Shown: one piece after another, positions 7,549-15,640 of the stretch | Layout of the letters: each line of letters begins with the position of its first letter | How positions within the stretch are numbered: the stretch's first letter is position 1 | Source of the DNA: Betaproteobacteria bacterium Ga0077540 | GTDB taxonomy: Bacteria; Pseudomonadota; Gammaproteobacteria; Burkholderiales; Methylophilaceae | Direction of reading: 5' to 3' | DNA: 64,000 nt | Assembly: GCA_001464125.1 (NCBI GenBank) | Contig: LNEP01000001.1 | Coordinates: 186,001-250,000 of the forward strand | Position numbers and translations under genes: made by a program | Notes under the pieces: generated by a model | Seen by the model: only the letters and a program-made list of their open reading frames with translations | What the model was told of the DNA's origin: nothing | Database searches by the model: none

Positions 7549-7830
7549 TTAATTGATTTTTGGTGCATCTACCATGGGTTGTATCGTGTTAATTGCTGAA
7601 CCCATTTCGGATACTTTCCCATTAATTACTTTGGGTGATTGCACCATCGGTTGAATAACACTCACTGGATTTGTAGAGGTGGAATTCATGCCAGTTAAGG
7701 TGGCTGTGGTGTTGGTGTTGGCATGGGTCATTGAAGTGAGCCCAGAACCACCTTGGCTAAGTGCGTTGGCTGTTAAAGATAAGGTTGACAATGATGCCAC
7801 AACTGATAAAGCTAAAACTAATTTTTTCAT
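7549..7830 (-). CDS. Small exported repeat peptide, function unknown
   Basis: A 93-residue precursor with a signal peptide (MKKLVLALSVVASLSTLSLTANA) and a mature part of about 70 residues, rich in Ser, Thr, Asn and Met, with no Cys. Two related copies of IQPMVxxPK(V/x)IN appear in the second half (VIQPMVQSPKVING and TIQPMVDAPKIN). The ribosome site AAGGAG precedes the ATG. It lies directly downstream of the bufferin operon on the same strand but has its own promoter at 7871-7899, whose motif matches the bufferin promoter. That suggests a shared stress regulon. I do not recognise a family. Confidence 0.6.
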   Translation of the reverse strand: MKKLVLALSVVASLSTLSLTANALSQGGSGLTSMTHANTNTTATLTGMNSTSTNPVSVIQPMVQSPKVINGKVSEMGSAINTIQPMVDAPKIN

Positions 7831-7870: not shown

Positions 7871-7899
7871 TTAGTCGGAGTGCTTAGGGATTCATTACA
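7871..7899 (-). promoter_or_regulatory. ECF-type promoter motif of the repeat peptide gene
   Basis: On the minus strand TGTAATGA (7899-7892) is followed after TGTAA by 16 bases and then CCGACTAA (7878-7871). The promoter region of the bufferin operon has TGTAAGGA and CCGACAAA with the same 16-base gap. It lies about 40 bases before the ATG. The motif is seen directly; assignment to an ECF sigma factor is inferred. Confidence 0.55.
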
Positions 7900-7925
7900 T
7901 AATTAATTAAAAAATTCTTATTTTT

Positions 7926-8723
7926 TTACAGATGGTCGCTATCGGTGTTGAGTGCTACGCTAATCAACATTTCTTCTTGTAACCATTCAGACAGCAATCC
8001 AGCTGCATACGGAAGCACATCCTCTTCATCCATATGCGCTGTTAAATATTCACATAATTCGCCAAATGTATGGCGTTGCATCATGTAAGCAATGGCCTCA
8101 GCCTCTAGTGCTGTCAGACTTTTGAATTGAGACACCATTTCTTTACGCCACACTAAAAACTGTGTGGGTTCTAATGCCATATCAAGATTTGCCTGATCGT
8201 TGTTTTCCAATGCCATCCATGCACGGATGACATTGGTTTGTGCTTGACCTAAATAAACCGATGGAAGCCATTGAAAAGATAAATCCCCCCATTGCTCTGG
8301 TGTAAAGGCTGATAAATCCTGAAGGGTCAGGCATGGTGTATCTAATGAATCAAAAGCAAGGCCTAAGCGCCATTCAAAATTTGCCATGTCAGCATACAAC
8401 GGTTTATCAGGTGCATATGCTTGCAAAAAATCACTTAGTTGATCGCCAAGCCAGCGCATATTTCGATGTGTGGATGGATGACGAGCGATGAAGGCATCCA
8501 TATGCTGATTAAAGACTTGGGCTCCCAGTAATTTTGCTAAATTGGGGAATTGACTAGAGAGCGCTTCGCGAATTCGCGACCGATAGGCATGGTGATAGAT
8601 GTTTAATCGCTCAGTAATATTGCCCTTTGCAATCGGTGTAATCTCTGCTGCGATGGTAGCGTCAACCTCGCTAGCCATTAAATATTGTTGAAGCGTATTT
8701 TGTAGCTCTTGTAAACGCATCAT
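7926..8723 (-). CDS. bufC: BufC-like partner protein (DUF2063 family)
   Basis: A 265-residue protein of the DUF2063 family (putative DNA-binding domain, HvfC/BufC). The N-terminal helical region has the typical LQxxLQQYL opening and NIYHHAYRSRIREALSSQFP; a mixed C-terminal domain follows. In bufferin and related RiPP systems this partner binds the precursor and works with the MNIO enzyme. The ATG overlaps the end of bufB by four bases (ATGA-type coupling), so the two proteins are probably made in matched amounts. No DoxX-type bufD follows. The symbol is by family and neighbourhood. Confidence 0.82.
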   Translation of the reverse strand: MMRLQELQNTLQQYLMASEVDATIAAEITPIAKGNITERLNIYHHAYRSRIREALSSQFPNLAKLLGAQVFNQHMDAFIARHPSTHRNMRWLGDQLSDFLQAYAPDKPLYADMANFEWRLGLAFDSLDTPCLTLQDLSAFTPEQWGDLSFQWLPSVYLGQAQTNVIRAWMALENNDQANLDMALEPTQFLVWRKEMVSQFKSLTALEAEAIAYMMQRHTFGELCEYLTAHMDEEDVLPYAAGLLSEWLQEEMLISVALNTDSDHL

Positions 8724-9571
8724 GCTGCCAATTCTAAGGCACTGAGTTTGCGGGCGTGGTCTAACTCTGCAATCAGTTCAGCAATGGGTGGAATATGGTC
8801 ATCGCGTTCAATCATGGTGGAGACAGGCCCAAATCGGCGAATCGCATGCGAATATAAATCCCAGACGCCATTTACGATGGGCGCATCGTGCGTGTCGATA
8901 ATGTAATCACCATGGTCTTCATGCCCAGCTAGATGGATTTGTTGAACTCGACTTGCATCGATTGCATTCATAAATTCAAATGCATCAAAACTGTGATTGA
9001 TGCTGCTGACATAAATATTGTTTACATCCAGCAACAGCAAACAGCCAGACCGCTTTGCAATCTGATTAATAAACTCCCATTCCGTCATCTCAGAATTTTT
9101 AAAGCTAACATAACTCGAGACGTTTTCAATCAATATCGGTCTGCCCAAAAAGTCTTGTACTTGCGAAATTCTGTCAACGACATGGTGAATCGTTTCTTCT
9201 GTGTACGATAACGGTAGTAGGTCATGCAGATTAACGCCATGCACGCCGGTCCAGCATAAGTGGTCTGAAATCCAAGCTGGTTCAATTCTTTCTGATAGTT
9301 GCTTAAGTTCAGACAGATAGTTTTTGTCCAAAGGGCTAGCAGAACCAATTGATAAAGAAACGCCATGCATCACCATGGGATAATCCGCTCTGATTTTATC
9401 TAAGTAGTAGAGAGGCTTACCGCCAGGAATCATGTAATTCTCTGAAATGATTTCAAACCAATCTACGTTAGGGCGGCTGTCCAGAATTTCTTGATAATGC
9501 TCAGTACGCAGGCCTAATCCAAACCCTAAGTTTGGTAAATGATGAGCTGTTTTTTGATGAATAGGTTTCAT
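8720..9571 (-). CDS. bufB: MNIO-family RiPP-modifying enzyme BufB (DUF692)
   Basis: A 283-residue TIM-barrel protein of the DUF692 family, the multinuclear iron-dependent oxidases. Family landmarks are NLGFGLGLRTEHY near the N-terminus, VMHGVSLSIG, AWISDHLCW, LIENVSSY, LLLDVNNIYVS, HLAGHEDHG and DTHDAP; the repeated His, Asp and Glu are the iron ligands. In bufferin systems this enzyme oxidises Cys residues of the precursor to thiooxazole-type groups that bind copper. It sits between the Cys-rich precursor gene and bufC, which is the canonical order. A hairpin separates it from the precursor gene. Function is assigned from family knowledge plus neighbourhood. Confidence 0.9.
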   Translation of the reverse strand: MKPIHQKTAHHLPNLGFGLGLRTEHYQEILDSRPNVDWFEIISENYMIPGGKPLYYLDKIRADYPMVMHGVSLSIGSASPLDKNYLSELKQLSERIEPAWISDHLCWTGVHGVNLHDLLPLSYTEETIHHVVDRISQVQDFLGRPILIENVSSYVSFKNSEMTEWEFINQIAKRSGCLLLLDVNNIYVSSINHSFDAFEFMNAIDASRVQQIHLAGHEDHGDYIIDTHDAPIVNGVWDLYSHAIRRFGPVSTMIERDDHIPPIAELIAELDHARKLSALELAA

Positions 9572-9581
9572 TGTTGGTTAT

Positions 9582-9616
9582 CAATCGATGCTGGTTTTAT
9601 CACTCAGCACCGATTG
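9582..9616 (-). promoter_or_regulatory. Hairpin between precursor and enzyme genes
   Basis: The arms at 9582-9593 and 9605-9616 pair over 12 positions with one mismatch (CAATCG-x-TGCTG) around an 11-base loop. There is no T-run, so full termination is unlikely. Such a hairpin after a RiPP precursor gene can slow transcription or protect the upstream message, giving more precursor than enzyme. That role is inferred. Confidence 0.45.
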
Positions 9617-9633
9617 TTCTAGTTCATGGTTGA

Positions 9634-9981
9634 TTATGACTCTACGTGACCACCAGCGGCATCACATTCAGCAGAAGACATGACTTTCATCCCATGTCCT
9701 TTGCATTCGCTTTGCCCTTTGCAGCTATTACCTGCGGTTTTACATGACGATGTGCCTTTGCAAGAGTTGTTGAGTGTTTTACATGCGTTTTGACCTTTGC
9801 ATGCATTGCCCGCAGTTTTACAATCACTGGTACCTTTGCATGCGTTCACACCAACGCAATGTACAGAAGCTGCGTTAGCTGTGTTGGTACCACCATTACT
9901 TGCACAACCCGATAAAATCAGTGCTGCTGCACCTGCCGCAATCAATGCGCCTGAACGCAATTTAGAACTTTGACCTGCCAT
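9634..9981 (-). CDS. bufA2: BufA2-like bufferin precursor with lipobox
   Basis: A 115-residue Cys-rich precursor. The export signal (KLRSGALIAAGAAALILSGCAS) ends in LSGC at residues 23-26, a clean lipobox, so the mature peptide may be a lipoprotein starting at Cys26. The mature part has ten further Cys, mostly in CKG or CKT units. A run of about 24 residues (CKGTSDCKTAGNACKGQ) recurs as CKGTSSCKTAGNSCKGQ. The end, SSAECDAAGGHVES, matches the usual tail of BufA2-type precursors. Known bufferins bind copper in the periplasm after MNIO modification. The ATG at 9981 is chosen over 10017 because GAGGAG lies six bases upstream. It is the first gene of bufA-bufB-bufC. Confidence 0.85.
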   Translation of the reverse strand: MAGQSSKLRSGALIAAGAAALILSGCASNGGTNTANAASVHCVGVNACKGTSDCKTAGNACKGQNACKTLNNSCKGTSSCKTAGNSCKGQSECKGHGMKVMSSAECDAAGGHVES

Positions 9982-10037
9982 GTTAATCTCCTCAAAAAAA
10001 GTCTGTAATGCGTACAACGCAAAGTTATACGTAAGCT

Positions 10038-10066
10038 TTTGTCGGAGGAGGGTTCATGTCCTTACA
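10038..10066 (-). promoter_or_regulatory. ECF-type promoter motif of the bufferin operon
   Basis: On the minus strand TGTAAGGA (10066-10059) and CCGACAAA (10045-10038) are separated so that 16 bases lie between TGTAA and CCGAC. This equals the arrangement at 7871-7899. It is about 57 bases before the bufA ATG. Bufferin-type operons in other proteobacteria are often under ECF sigma factors, which supports the reading. Confidence 0.6.
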
Positions 10067-10126
10067 ATTTGTTGAGGCAATTATTCAATGTCGTGAAAAT
10101 TTCATCTTAAAAAGTCTCATTACAAG

Positions 10127-10156
10127 TGTAAGTAAATTAAGTAACAAAGCGACTAA
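10127..10156 (+). promoter_or_regulatory. Possible ECF-type promoter of the thioredoxin-CcdA operon
   Basis: TGTAAGTA at 10127-10134 and CGACTAAA at 10150-10157 resemble the two motifs on the other strand, but with one extra base in the spacer. It precedes the thioredoxin ATG by about 30 bases. Weaker than the other two. Confidence 0.35.
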
Positions 10157-10187
10157 ACAACATCTTTAACTTTTTTTGGAAAATGAT

Positions 10188-10580: not shown

Positions 10581-11309
10581 ATGCTAATTGATATCACCAC
10601 CTACGGACTCAGTTTTATTGCCGGGGTTTTATCGATACTCTCCCCATGTGTTTTGCCGTTAGTGCCCATCATCGTAGGCACTGCGCTCAATACACATCGT
10701 TTTGGTCCATACGCTCTGGCACTAGGGCTGGCCATTTCGTTTACAATGATAGGTGTTTTTCTGGCCACACTGGGTGATGCACTGGGCATTAATCAAGAAC
10801 TATTTCGACAAATTGCAGCTTGGTTATTGATGCTATTTGGAGTGGTGCTTTTGTCAATTAGGTTGCAGGCTGGTTTTGCAAATATTACTTCTGGGCTAGG
10901 CGGCTCTGGACAGCAACTTTTAGACAAGTTATCAACCGACTCCTTGCTTGGGCAATTTGGATTAGGCTTAGTACTGGGGATTATTTGGAGCCCATGTGTT
11001 GGGCCCATCTTAGGTGCAACGGTAACACTAGCCAGCCAAGGACAACAACTAGGTCAAGTGGTCATTGTCATGGCTATTTTTGGTCTAGGCGCTGGCTTGC
11101 CATTGATACTATTGGGCATGTTATCTCGACAAGTCATGATGAATATCCGTGGTAAGTTGTTTGCCGCAGGTAAACTAGGTAAACAAGTCTTAGGGGGTGT
11201 GATGCTGCTAATTGGAATAATGATTCTGACAGGCTTAGACAAACAGCTAGAGTCATTTTTAGTCGCAATATCTCCAGATTGGCTTATTACTCTGTCTACA
11301 CGCTTCTAA
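10581..11309 (+). CDS. CcdA/DsbD-type thiol electron transporter
   Basis: A 242-residue inner membrane protein with about six helices. The paired Cys of the family are present in SPCVLP (Cys23, first helix) and SPCVGP (Cys139, fourth helix). CcdA-type proteins pass electrons from cytosolic thioredoxin across the membrane to periplasmic thiol proteins. Here the obvious acceptor is the thioredoxin-like protein encoded directly before it. It lies in an operon with that gene and with an unknown membrane protein whose ATG follows the stop directly. I do not assign a symbol because CcdA in the strict sense serves cytochrome c maturation, which is not indicated here. Confidence 0.88.
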   Translation: MLIDITTYGLSFIAGVLSILSPCVLPLVPIIVGTALNTHRFGPYALALGLAISFTMIGVFLATLGDALGINQELFRQIAAWLLMLFGVVLLSIRLQAGFANITSGLGGSGQQLLDKLSTDSLLGQFGLGLVLGIIWSPCVGPILGATVTLASQGQQLGQVVIVMAIFGLGAGLPLILLGMLSRQVMMNIRGKLFAAGKLGKQVLGGVMLLIGIMILTGLDKQLESFLVAISPDWLITLSTRF

Positions 11310-13447: not shown

Positions 13448-15640
13448 ATGGAAATTAAGGTCAACTTTCTCGATAAACTACGTCTGGAAGCCAAGTTCGA
13501 TGACTTCACGGTAATTGCCGACCAGCCTATCCGCTATAAAGGCGATGGCTCGGCGCCTGGGCCATTCGATTACTTTTTGGCTTCATCGGCCTTGTGTGCG
13601 GCTTATTTTGTGAAGCTGTATTGCAGCACGCGCAATATCCCTACTGAAAATATCCGGCTGTCGCACAACAATATTGTGGACCCAGAAAACCGCTACAAGC
13701 AGATTTTCAAAATCCAAATCGAGTTACCTAACGATATCTCTGAAAAAGACCGCATTGGCATTTTGCGTTCGATTGATCGCTGTACCGTGAAAAAAGTAGT
13801 ACAAGAAGGGCCTGACTTTATCATTGAAGAAGTGGCTAACCTAGATGCCGATGCGCAGGCCCTGCTGACCGTAAATACCGCGGCAGAATCACAGACCTAT
13901 ATCACCGGCAAAGACTTACCGCTAGAGCAAACCATCGCTAATATGACCAGCGTGCTGGCTGGGCTGGGCATCAAGATCGAAATCGCTTCATGGCGCAATA
14001 TTGTGCCTAACGTGTGGTCGTTGCATATCCGCGATGCACATTCACCGATGTGCTTTACGAACGGCAAAGGATCAACCAAGGAAAGCGCGCTGGCGTCAGC
14101 ATTAGGCGAGTATATCGAGCGGCTGAGTAACAACCATTTTTACGCGGGTTCGTACTGGGGTGAGGAAATTGCCAATGCCAAGTTTGTGCATTATCCGAAC
14201 GAGCGCTGGTTCAAACCAGGCCGTAAAGATGCGCTGCCGAAAGAGATTCTGGACGATTACTGCCTGGAGATTTACAACCCCGATGGCGAGCTACGGGGTT
14301 CACACTTGATAGACACTAATTCCGGCAATGCTGAACGCGGTATTTGTTCGCTACCGTTTGTGCGGCAGTCAGATGGCGAGGTAGTGTACTTTCCGACTAA
14401 CTTGGTGGAAAACCTATTTGTCAGCAATGGCATGAGCGCGGGCAATACGCTGGTGGAAGCGCAGGTGCAGTGTTTATCTGAGATTTTTGAGCGTGCAGTG
14501 AAGCGCGAAATCATTGAAGGCGAAATTGCGCTGCCGGATGTGCCGCAGGAAGTGCTGGCGAAATATCCTGGCGTGGTGGCTGGCATCAAAGGGCTGGAAG
14601 AGCAGGGGTTTCCTGTGTTGGTGAAAGATGCATCGCTGGGCGGGCAGTACCCGGTGATGTGCGTCACCCTGATGAACCCGCGCACCGGTGGTGTGTTTGC
14701 CTCATTTGGCGCTCACCCGACACTGGAAGTCGCGCTAGAACGCAGCCTGACCGAATTGCTTCAAGGCCGCAGTTTTGAAGGTTTGAACGATTTGCCGCAA
14801 CCGACCTTTGCCAGCGAAGCGGTGACCGAGCCGAATAACTTTGTGGAACACTTTATTGATTCCAGCGGTGTGGTGTCGTGGCGCTTTTTCAGTGCTAAAG
14901 CCGATTATGAGTTTGTTGAATGGGATTTCTCCGGCCAAGGCGACAACGCCAACGCCGAGGAGGCAGCAACGATGTTTGGGATGTTGGCCGATATGGGCAA
15001 AGAAGCTTATGTGGCCGTGTATGACCAACTTGGGGCAACAGCCTGCCGAATCCTAGTACCGGGATATTCTGAGATTTATCCGGTAGAAGACCTAGTATGG
15101 GATAACACCAATAAAGCATTATTATTCCGCGAAGATATCCTCAACCTGCATCAACTGGATGAAGCCAGCCTAGAAGCACTGCTGGAACGTTTGGACAACA
15201 ATGAGCTGGATGATTATGGCGATATAGGTACCTTGATTGGCATTCAGTTTGACGAGAACACGGCTTGGGGCCAGCTTACGGTGCTGGAATTAAAGCTACT
15301 GATTCATCTGGCTTTACAGCAGTTTGAAGAAACACAGGATCTAGTTGGTGCCTTCTTGCAGTACAACGACAATACGTTAGAGCGCAGCTTGTTTTACCAA
15401 GCCTTGAATGTAGTACTTGAGGTGAAGCTGGATGATGATCTGGAGTTAGCCGACTACGATGTTAACTTCCGACGTATGTTTGGTAATGATAGGATGGATG
15501 CCGTGATGGGCTCTGTTGAGGGTAGCGTGCGCTTCTTTGGTTTGACACCCACTAGCATGAAACTTGAAGGGCTGGACAGGCACCACCGTCTGATTGACAG
15601 CTATAGAAAGATACATGCGGTTAGAGATAAGACCTGCTAA
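13448..15640 (+). CDS. OsmC-YcaO fusion protein
   Basis: A 730-residue protein with an N-terminal OsmC-like domain (about 1-135) and a YcaO domain (about 165-560), then a helical C-terminal region. The OsmC part has both expected Cys regions (ALCAAYFVKLYC and DRCTVKKV). The YcaO part has GKGSTKESALASALGEYIER and TLVEAQVQCLSEIFERAVKRE, stretches that carry ATP-binding Glu/Gln residues. E. coli YcaO, which lacks OsmC, assists RimO-dependent methylthiolation of ribosomal protein S12, and OsmC-YcaO fusions of this length are known in gammaproteobacteria. No precursor peptide lies beside it, so a RiPP role is not indicated. The gene looks clearly more GC-rich than its neighbours, which suggests transfer. 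Confidence 0.85.
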   Translation: MEIKVNFLDKLRLEAKFDDFTVIADQPIRYKGDGSAPGPFDYFLASSALCAAYFVKLYCSTRNIPTENIRLSHNNIVDPENRYKQIFKIQIELPNDISEKDRIGILRSIDRCTVKKVVQEGPDFIIEEVANLDADAQALLTVNTAAESQTYITGKDLPLEQTIANMTSVLAGLGIKIEIASWRNIVPNVWSLHIRDAHSPMCFTNGKGSTKESALASALGEYIERLSNNHFYAGSYWGEEIANAKFVHYPNERWFKPGRKDALPKEILDDYCLEIYNPDGELRGSHLIDTNSGNAERGICSLPFVRQSDGEVVYFPTNLVENLFVSNGMSAGNTLVEAQVQCLSEIFERAVKREIIEGEIALPDVPQEVLAKYPGVVAGIKGLEEQGFPVLVKDASLGGQYPVMCVTLMNPRTGGVFASFGAHPTLEVALERSLTELLQGRSFEGLNDLPQPTFASEAVTEPNNFVEHFIDSSGVVSWRFFSAKADYEFVEWDFSGQGDNANAEEAATMFGMLADMGKEAYVAVYDQLGATACRILVPGYSEIYPVEDLVWDNTNKALLFREDILNLHQLDEASLEALLERLDNNELDDYGDIGTLIGIQFDENTAWGQLTVLELKLLIHLALQQFEETQDLVGAFLQYNDNTLERSLFYQALNVVLEVKLDDDLELADYDVNFRRMFGNDRMDAVMGSVEGSVRFFGLTPTSMKLEGLDRHHRLIDSYRKIHAVRDKTC

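Follow-up and report, generated by a model that had tools for sequence, protein, structure and literature searches.

We analysed a 64,000-nucleotide (nt) stretch of the Methylophilaceae genome Betaproteobacteria bacterium Ga0077540 (contig LNEP01000001.1, positions 186,001 to 250,000), called the window below, for a promoter-like motif that precedes a bufferin operon, a small secreted peptide gene and a divergent thioredoxin (Trx)-CcdA gene pair. The genes and sites are as follows.

7549..7830, minus strand: secreted Cys-free repeat peptide with five Met in about 70 mature residues, of no known family
7871..7899, minus strand: promoter-like site of the repeat-peptide gene, TGTAATGAATCCCTAAGCACTCCGACTAA, its exact core kept in two other genomes with the gene
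7926..8723, minus strand: BufB partner protein, DUF2063 (PF09836, 71 bits, cut-off 27.2)
8720..9571, minus strand: BufB maturase, MNIO, formerly DUF692 (NF050167, 400.4 bits, cut-off 310; PF05114)
9634..9981, minus strand: BufA2-type bufferin precursor (NCBIfam NF050166, 113.1 bits, cut-off 60)
10038..10066, minus strand: promoter-like site of the BufA2 operon, TGTAAGGACATGAACCCTCCTCCGACAAA, an exact motif
10127..10156, plus strand: promoter-like site of the Trx-CcdA genes, TGTAAG-N17-CGACTAA
10188..10571, plus strand: secreted Trx-like protein (PF00085, 59.3 bits)
10581..11309, plus strand: CcdA/DsbD-type membrane protein (PF02683, 59.1 bits)

The operon thus exceeds the curated cut-offs of both the BufA2 and the BufB MNIO models, and its DUF2063 partner reaches 57.3 bits with the HvfC model, below the cut-off of 142. 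The bufferin is predicted to bind copper, which would involve its modified Cys. The repeat peptide matched no Pfam or NCBIfam family.

A sequence-only reading of this region had placed two exact minus-strand sites before the BufA and repeat-peptide genes, with 16 bases between TGTAA and CCGAC, and a weaker third site with one extra base facing the Trx-CcdA genes. All three are present where they were placed. TGTAAGGA...CCGAC at 10041-10066 and TGTAATGA...CCGAC at 7874-7899, both on the minus strand, are exact and have the 16-base gap, and the Trx-CcdA site has a spacer one base longer (17) and GCGAC in place of CCGAC. The latter is regarded as the counterpart of good sites in relatives, because G175, G185 and G006 carry exact sites before Trx. 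With a weight matrix from 44 sites of other genomes, which were selected by pattern so that its invariant letters arise by construction, the Trx-CcdA site ranks first in the window at 21.9 bits even after a 3-bit spacer penalty, followed by the BufA site (18.6 bits) and the repeat-peptide site (18.1 bits), with the next match at 11.9 bits. The consensus first proposed was TGTAA(G/T)GA...CCGAC(A/T)A(A). CCGAC was rejected as the -10 element, since its first C varies in relatives and the TAA after CGAC is mostly kept, and TGTAAG-N16-CGACTAA is the better consensus.

Conservation of the sites was followed mainly in the family of the window, Methylophilaceae, with 187 genomes in the family-wide counts; stretches that L106 shares identically with L026, and L121 with L060, point to this family assignment. 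Of 30 family loci, the window's own included (the best 30 of 37 matches), 20 have GTAAG-N16-CGAC before BufA and no more than 800 nt from BufB, while the reversed pattern occurs in none and letter-shuffled patterns in a mean of 0.05. In a further set of 80 loci, the motif precedes BufA in eight, and two more Methylotenera loci carry it slightly further off; the Legionella bufferin loci show no motif by the two patterns compared. Genes for a secreted DUF1223 protein have the motif upstream in 26 of the 30 family loci tested, from 54 genomes with a match (reversed pattern, 0/30), and adjoin the BufB gene in several genomes (e.g., G011 and G194). G175 and G185 share with the window the adjacency of Trx-CcdA genes and bufferin operon, and in both GTAAG-N16-CGAC stands at the same place as in the window and begins 56 nt before the Trx start; G006 (L354) has an exact site before a Trx that is 48% identical to that of the window, and the motif is absent from two Rhodanobacter loci in which another gene precedes Trx. 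Among the 61 genomes searched, homologues of the repeat peptide were found only in G005 and G016, neither of which has a window-type maturase at the threshold used. Both carry TGTAATGA-N13-CCGAC upstream of the gene with differing spacer letters, so that the motif, like the five Met, is kept in all three genomes with the peptide.

By number alone the motif does not stand out in this genome. With at most one mismatch, the window holds four matches where 2.5 would be expected, a count attained in 24 of 100 shuffles. In the whole genome (2.33 Mb), TGTAA-N16-CCGAC occurs exactly five times against three for the reversed control, and the looser GTAAG-N16-CGACNAA with one mismatch 34 times against 70. 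The sequence-only reading had called for this search and had named a random frequency as evidence against it; the frequency found is near random, and the pattern was rejected as a single-genome predictor. The motif is judged real despite the chance-level count because of its position before secreted-protein genes and its conservation in relatives: three of the five exact matches are intergenic and just upstream of genes for secreted proteins, namely BufA, the repeat peptide and DUF1223 (contig C11). The other two were set aside: C4:156494 falls where a 166-codon frame ends, with another frame following 28 nt later, and C6:94647 is antisense within a 523-codon frame. A further site, C12:283694, is inside a 223-codon frame.

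Seven sigma-70 region 2 matches were detected in the genome, of which three look like extracytoplasmic function (ECF) sigmas by size and neighbours (contigs C12, C6 and C3). The C3 sigma gene is accompanied by a gene (L006:974-1414) for a secreted protein of GDRIDNRLDNK-like repeats, and we take the secreted proteins encoded after the C3 and the C6 sigma genes to be DUF3106-like. A sigma/anti-sigma pair, for which a search had been suggested, was found on C12.

C12:167949-168509: ECF sigma gene (PF04542, 57.5 bits; TIGR02943, 197 bits, cut-off 162.2)
L005:2051-2302, directly downstream: ZAS anti-sigma of 83 residues (NF052368, 76.3 bits, cut-off 50)

The anti-sigma motif, read by eye, is Cys4-X25-His-X3-Cys-X2-Cys. 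It is followed by a KCG-repeat (HvfA-type) precursor (NF050137, 47.4 bits, cut-off 19.5; NF050188 below its cut-off), an MNIO and a DUF2063 protein (L013). In the 187 family genomes, TGTAAG-N16-CGACTAA gives 200 matches against 21 for the reversed pattern. A C12-type sigma is present in 100 of the genomes, which together hold 185 of the 200 matches, and 76 of these 100 have at least one. The C12-type sigma is present in 34 of 36 genomes with BufB (at the threshold used) and 53 of 54 with DUF1223, and in G094 its gene lies 1.7 kb from a window-type BufB. The sequences are related, so the Fisher and shuffle figures in this study overstate independence. Conservation thus supports placing the metallophore, the repeat peptide and Trx-CcdA together under a single ECF sigma whose gene lies elsewhere, with the C12 sigma as the likely reader of the motif; the proposed regulon takes in the bufferin operon but appears wider than a small bufferin regulon.

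No copy of the motif is more strictly conserved than the one inside the sigma gene itself, where the C12 gene carries it in the codons of region 4.2 (TGT AAG GAA CTG GAA ATT ACC ACG ACC AAT). The family sigma genes comprised the best 90 of 113 matches, reduced to 89 in the codon count since one, L156 (G165:C401), has an in-frame stop; in this C12-type gene TAG replaces a conserved Trp codon just 3' of the motif, which is itself kept. The internal motif is exact in 87 of the 89 genes. Its Cys codon is TGT in 89/89, against 107/191 at other Cys codons, its Lys codon is AAG in 88/88, against 239/857 elsewhere, and the G after xC is found in 88/88, against 651/2949, although the residue encoded there is Ala, Thr, Pro or Ser. 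When codons were shuffled synonymously gene by gene (1000 trials), the motif survived in a mean of 7.2 and a maximum of 19 of the 89 genes. Of the degenerate columns among 88 codons, the three with the third bases of the motif vary least (89, 88 and 89 of 89), and the runner-up (82) also lies beside the motif. Outside the family but within the same order (43-50% identity; the best 40 of 85 matches), the motif is exact in 25 of 40 genes, with a shuffle mean of 2.8 and maximum of 9. TGT is found there in 38/40, AAG in 28/28 and NCG in 36/38, whereas TGC is the commoner form at other Cys codons (81/128). In ten of the 15 exceptions Gln replaces Lys, which gives GTCAG with NCG kept in all ten; these fit the GTMAG reported for Neisseria sigma-E in the text available (PMC2893595).

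No GTAAG-CGAC motif occurs in the 400 nt upstream of the sigma gene in any of the 89 family genes, nor did this pattern turn up immediately ahead of the sigma gene or of HvfA. In a single family locus, L141, GTAAC...CCGAC stands 105 nt upstream of sigma. An anti-sigma-like HxxxCxxC frame follows within 420 nt downstream in all 89, and a double KCG repeat is encoded on the downstream stretch retrieved in 50 of them. The internal motif is likely a hidden promoter for the anti-sigma and HvfA-type bufferin genes.

The sites, their conservation, their co-occurrence with the C12-type sigma and the frozen synonymous codons in the sigma gene are directly supported by these observations. What explains them best, and what we hold to be very probable, is that the three window sites share a family-wide promoter-like motif that is read by one ECF sigma encoded on C12, with a copy of the motif in its own gene. 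Several observations weigh against this explanation. The spacer at the Trx site is 17, the motif is no more numerous in this genome than in the control, ten of the 30 family BufA loci lack it within 800 nt of BufB (some of them longer or cut), and 72 of the 80 loci of the further set lack it. Of the 100 genomes that have a C12-type sigma, 24 show no exact match of the motif, and some of those 100 sigma matches are distant (42-48% identity). Conversely, four of the 87 genomes without this sigma still carry the motif (15 matches), three of them (G093, G188 and G193) being 72-89% complete and holding 14 matches, and the fourth (G017) 99% complete with one match. The sole PF00174 gene found in the genome has no site at up to two mismatches, and conservation is rather high as well at the third bases adjoining the internal motif (82, 81 and 78 of 89).

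This last point, together with the strong conservation of the surrounding residues (ICKEL-I-TN), is what might be expected if the motif in the sigma gene were a by-product of codon bias or of the conserved protein sequence and no promoter. However, three free third bases are fixed though the residue at NCG varies, shuffles that preserve the protein and the codon pool retain the motif in at most 19 of 89 genes, and TGT persists outside the family where other Cys codons favour TGC; we consider such a by-product unlikely. A further possibility, that the C12 sigma is a bystander and the motif is read by the C6 or C3 sigma with the DUF3106-like neighbours, draws on the presence of three ECF-like sigma genes in one genome and on the C6-type sigma, found in 127 of 187 genomes, occurring in all three incomplete motif-bearing genomes without a C12-type match. 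Yet of the 28 genomes in which C6 occurs and C12 does not, 24 hold no exact motif, and three matches stand in G187, which has C12 and not C6. The C12 gene itself contains the motif, and none was found by pattern near the C6 and C3 sigma genes; we give this assignment little credence.

It is more doubtful still that the internal motif merely binds and titrates the sigma holoenzyme, or acts by interference, with no productive promoter. The location within a gene would suit such a role, and binding and transcription are not separable from sequence; but an anti-sigma-like frame follows in all 89 genes and no motif lies in the 400 nt upstream, which leaves the internal motif as the sole visible self-control site, and a productive promoter of the same layout is described for Corynebacterium glutamicum in the part of the report available (PMC3489674). 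Chance as the source of the window motifs would agree with counts near the controls in the window and the genome, but is hardly credible given that orthologous promoters keep the motif in relatives and that the family-wide excess is tied to one sigma.

In the explanation through the C12 sigma, binding of this protein to the sites, transcription starts at them and a signal from oxidants or copper are all inferred from sequence. The most likely mechanism would be a ZAS-controlled ECF regulon for periplasmic protection. The zinc-finger anti-sigma (Cys4-X25-His-X3-Cys-X2-Cys) would hold the sigma until an oxidant or a thiol-binding metal modifies the anti-sigma, and once released, the sigma would be free to transcribe targets in trans, namely Trx-CcdA and the secreted DUF1223 protein as well as the BufA2 operon and the Met-enriched peptide. 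The promoter within its region 4.2 codons would give it control of the anti-sigma and of the HvfA-type bufferin operon while leaving the sigma gene itself uninduced. The response would in this way raise its own brake and effectors and keep the sigma outside its own loop. The broader proposition appears probable to us: that a promoter is embedded in the codons of the very helix that reads promoters, with DNA and protein of region 4.2 co-selected in many families of the order, that it switches on the inhibitor and a metal-binding peptide and not the sigma, and that a periplasmic metal, methionine and thiol regulon including BufA2 and DUF1223 is controlled in trans.

Systems of this kind are already known, and the accounts used here come from partial texts of the papers cited. 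In Neisseria, sigma-E promoters read GTMAGBWTT, a spacer of 12-13 and CGTCTAAH (PMC2893595), and in Neisseria meningitidis sigma-E/MseR controls an autoregulated polycistronic operon, NMB2140-NMB2145, and msrA/msrB (PMC2893595; PMC3240639). The system described here has in common with it a small ECF regulon, an anti-sigma directly downstream, the -35 GTMAG and a similar spacing, and its anti-sigma shares the positions of the functional MseR residues Cys4, Cys34 and Cys37. The -10 elements, CGTCTAA and CGACTAA, are one letter apart, while GTAAG and the spacing agree. HvfABC-type genes belong to the sigma operon in both, with a different gene order; in Neisseria one promoter precedes an operon with the sigma gene inside it, whereas here the sigma gene comes first with the motif within its codons, and BufA2, Trx-CcdA and DUF1223 are additional to the Neisseria set. 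In Caulobacter crescentus, sigma-F (GTAACC-N16-CGAA) governs a YedY (MsrP-like) gene together with two DUF2282-DUF692-DUF2063 (bufferin) operons at unlinked places (PMC3511200). One ECF sigma over bufferin operons and an MsrP-like gene would be common to both; Caulobacter differs in its -35 and -10 letters, in having a membrane regulator, CC3252 (DUF1109), and no small zinc-finger anti-sigma, and in a promoter before sigF. Haemophilus influenzae RpoE2/HrsE shares the combination of ECF sigma and ZAS-type anti-sigma (67 residues) and controls msrAB and a DoxX/COG3220/DUF2063 cluster in a hypochlorite-linked response, but there the metallophore genes lie apart from the sigma gene, the rpoE2 upstream region is only weakly self-activated, and the partial text mentions no internal promoter (PMC7907618).

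The circuit proposed here is that of C. glutamicum sigH-rshA, where the coding sequence of sigH holds a SigH-dependent promoter for rshA, and sigH itself is transcribed from SigH-independent promoters (PMC3489674). That case is from another phylum and drives rshA alone, with no metallophore genes and, in the part of the paper available, no mention of codon-level conservation. In the open literature searched, we did not find a BufA2 operon controlled in trans by the sigma of an HvfA operon, DUF1223 or Trx-CcdA as members of such a regulon, or a codon-frozen internal promoter across an order; the internal promoter and the trans control of the BufA2 operon look new.

The frequent company of bufferin operons and sigma genes is in print for Buf1, but for Buf2 clusters, the kind in the window, the survey, as far as its text was available, found no sigma genes (PMC12452194), and the C12 sigma is a candidate regulator for these BufA2 bufferins. 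Within the family the motif provides a sequence test for regulon members, and through it the secreted DUF1223 proteins, a family as yet uncharacterised, become linked with bufferins and MsrP-like proteins. What holds the synonymous codons in place is likely a promoter within the gene of the protein thought to read it, and such a promoter would explain how the sigma could induce its brake and effectors but not itself.

Further likely members, as suggested by the genes that follow the motif, are the secreted DUF1223 protein in this genome and MsrP-like, DoxX, SelR and EF-hand genes in relatives. For 30 of the 200 family matches (L328-L357), the downstream genes, sorted by eye from their N-termini, were ten MsrP-like, five DUF1223, four bufferin-like precursors, three DoxX, two CutA, one each of anti-sigma, Trx, EF-hand and SelR, and two not assignable; Pfam was run on one MsrP-like, one DoxX, the SelR and the EF-hand protein, as well as on DUF1223 and CutA of the window's genome. 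Five relatives (L359, L360, L361, L362 and L366) have two exact same-strand sites about 1.7-1.9 kb apart before MsrP-like and DoxX-like genes, which suggests a conserved two-promoter cluster.

The repeat peptide invites comparison with a Met-rich scavenger peptide co-regulated with MsrP, of the MrpX type: its five Met are conserved, yet the PF00174 gene of the same genome is free of the motif at up to two mismatches and was rejected as a regulon member. In G005, an exact site (L363:5526, minus strand; G005:C228:3447-3475) lies 3.3 kb from the repeat peptide and 93 nt before a 641-residue HD-GYP-like frame. Two other sites in the window's genome mark possible members. One, at C1:123171 (L170:1501-1528), has one mismatch and lies 61 nt before a secreted EF-hand protein, a similar protein having an exact site in G010 (L351). 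The other, at about C15:42383 (L168:1501-1528), is an exact GTAAG-N16-CGACTAA antisense within fxsA, with the longest cutA frame (CutA1) starting 101 nt further on; closely similar sites occur in relatives, a likeness that coding constraint on fxsA could explain too. Elsewhere in the window, positions 13448-15640 (plus strand) hold a 730-residue frame that we take to be an OsmC domain fused to a YcaO-like protein.

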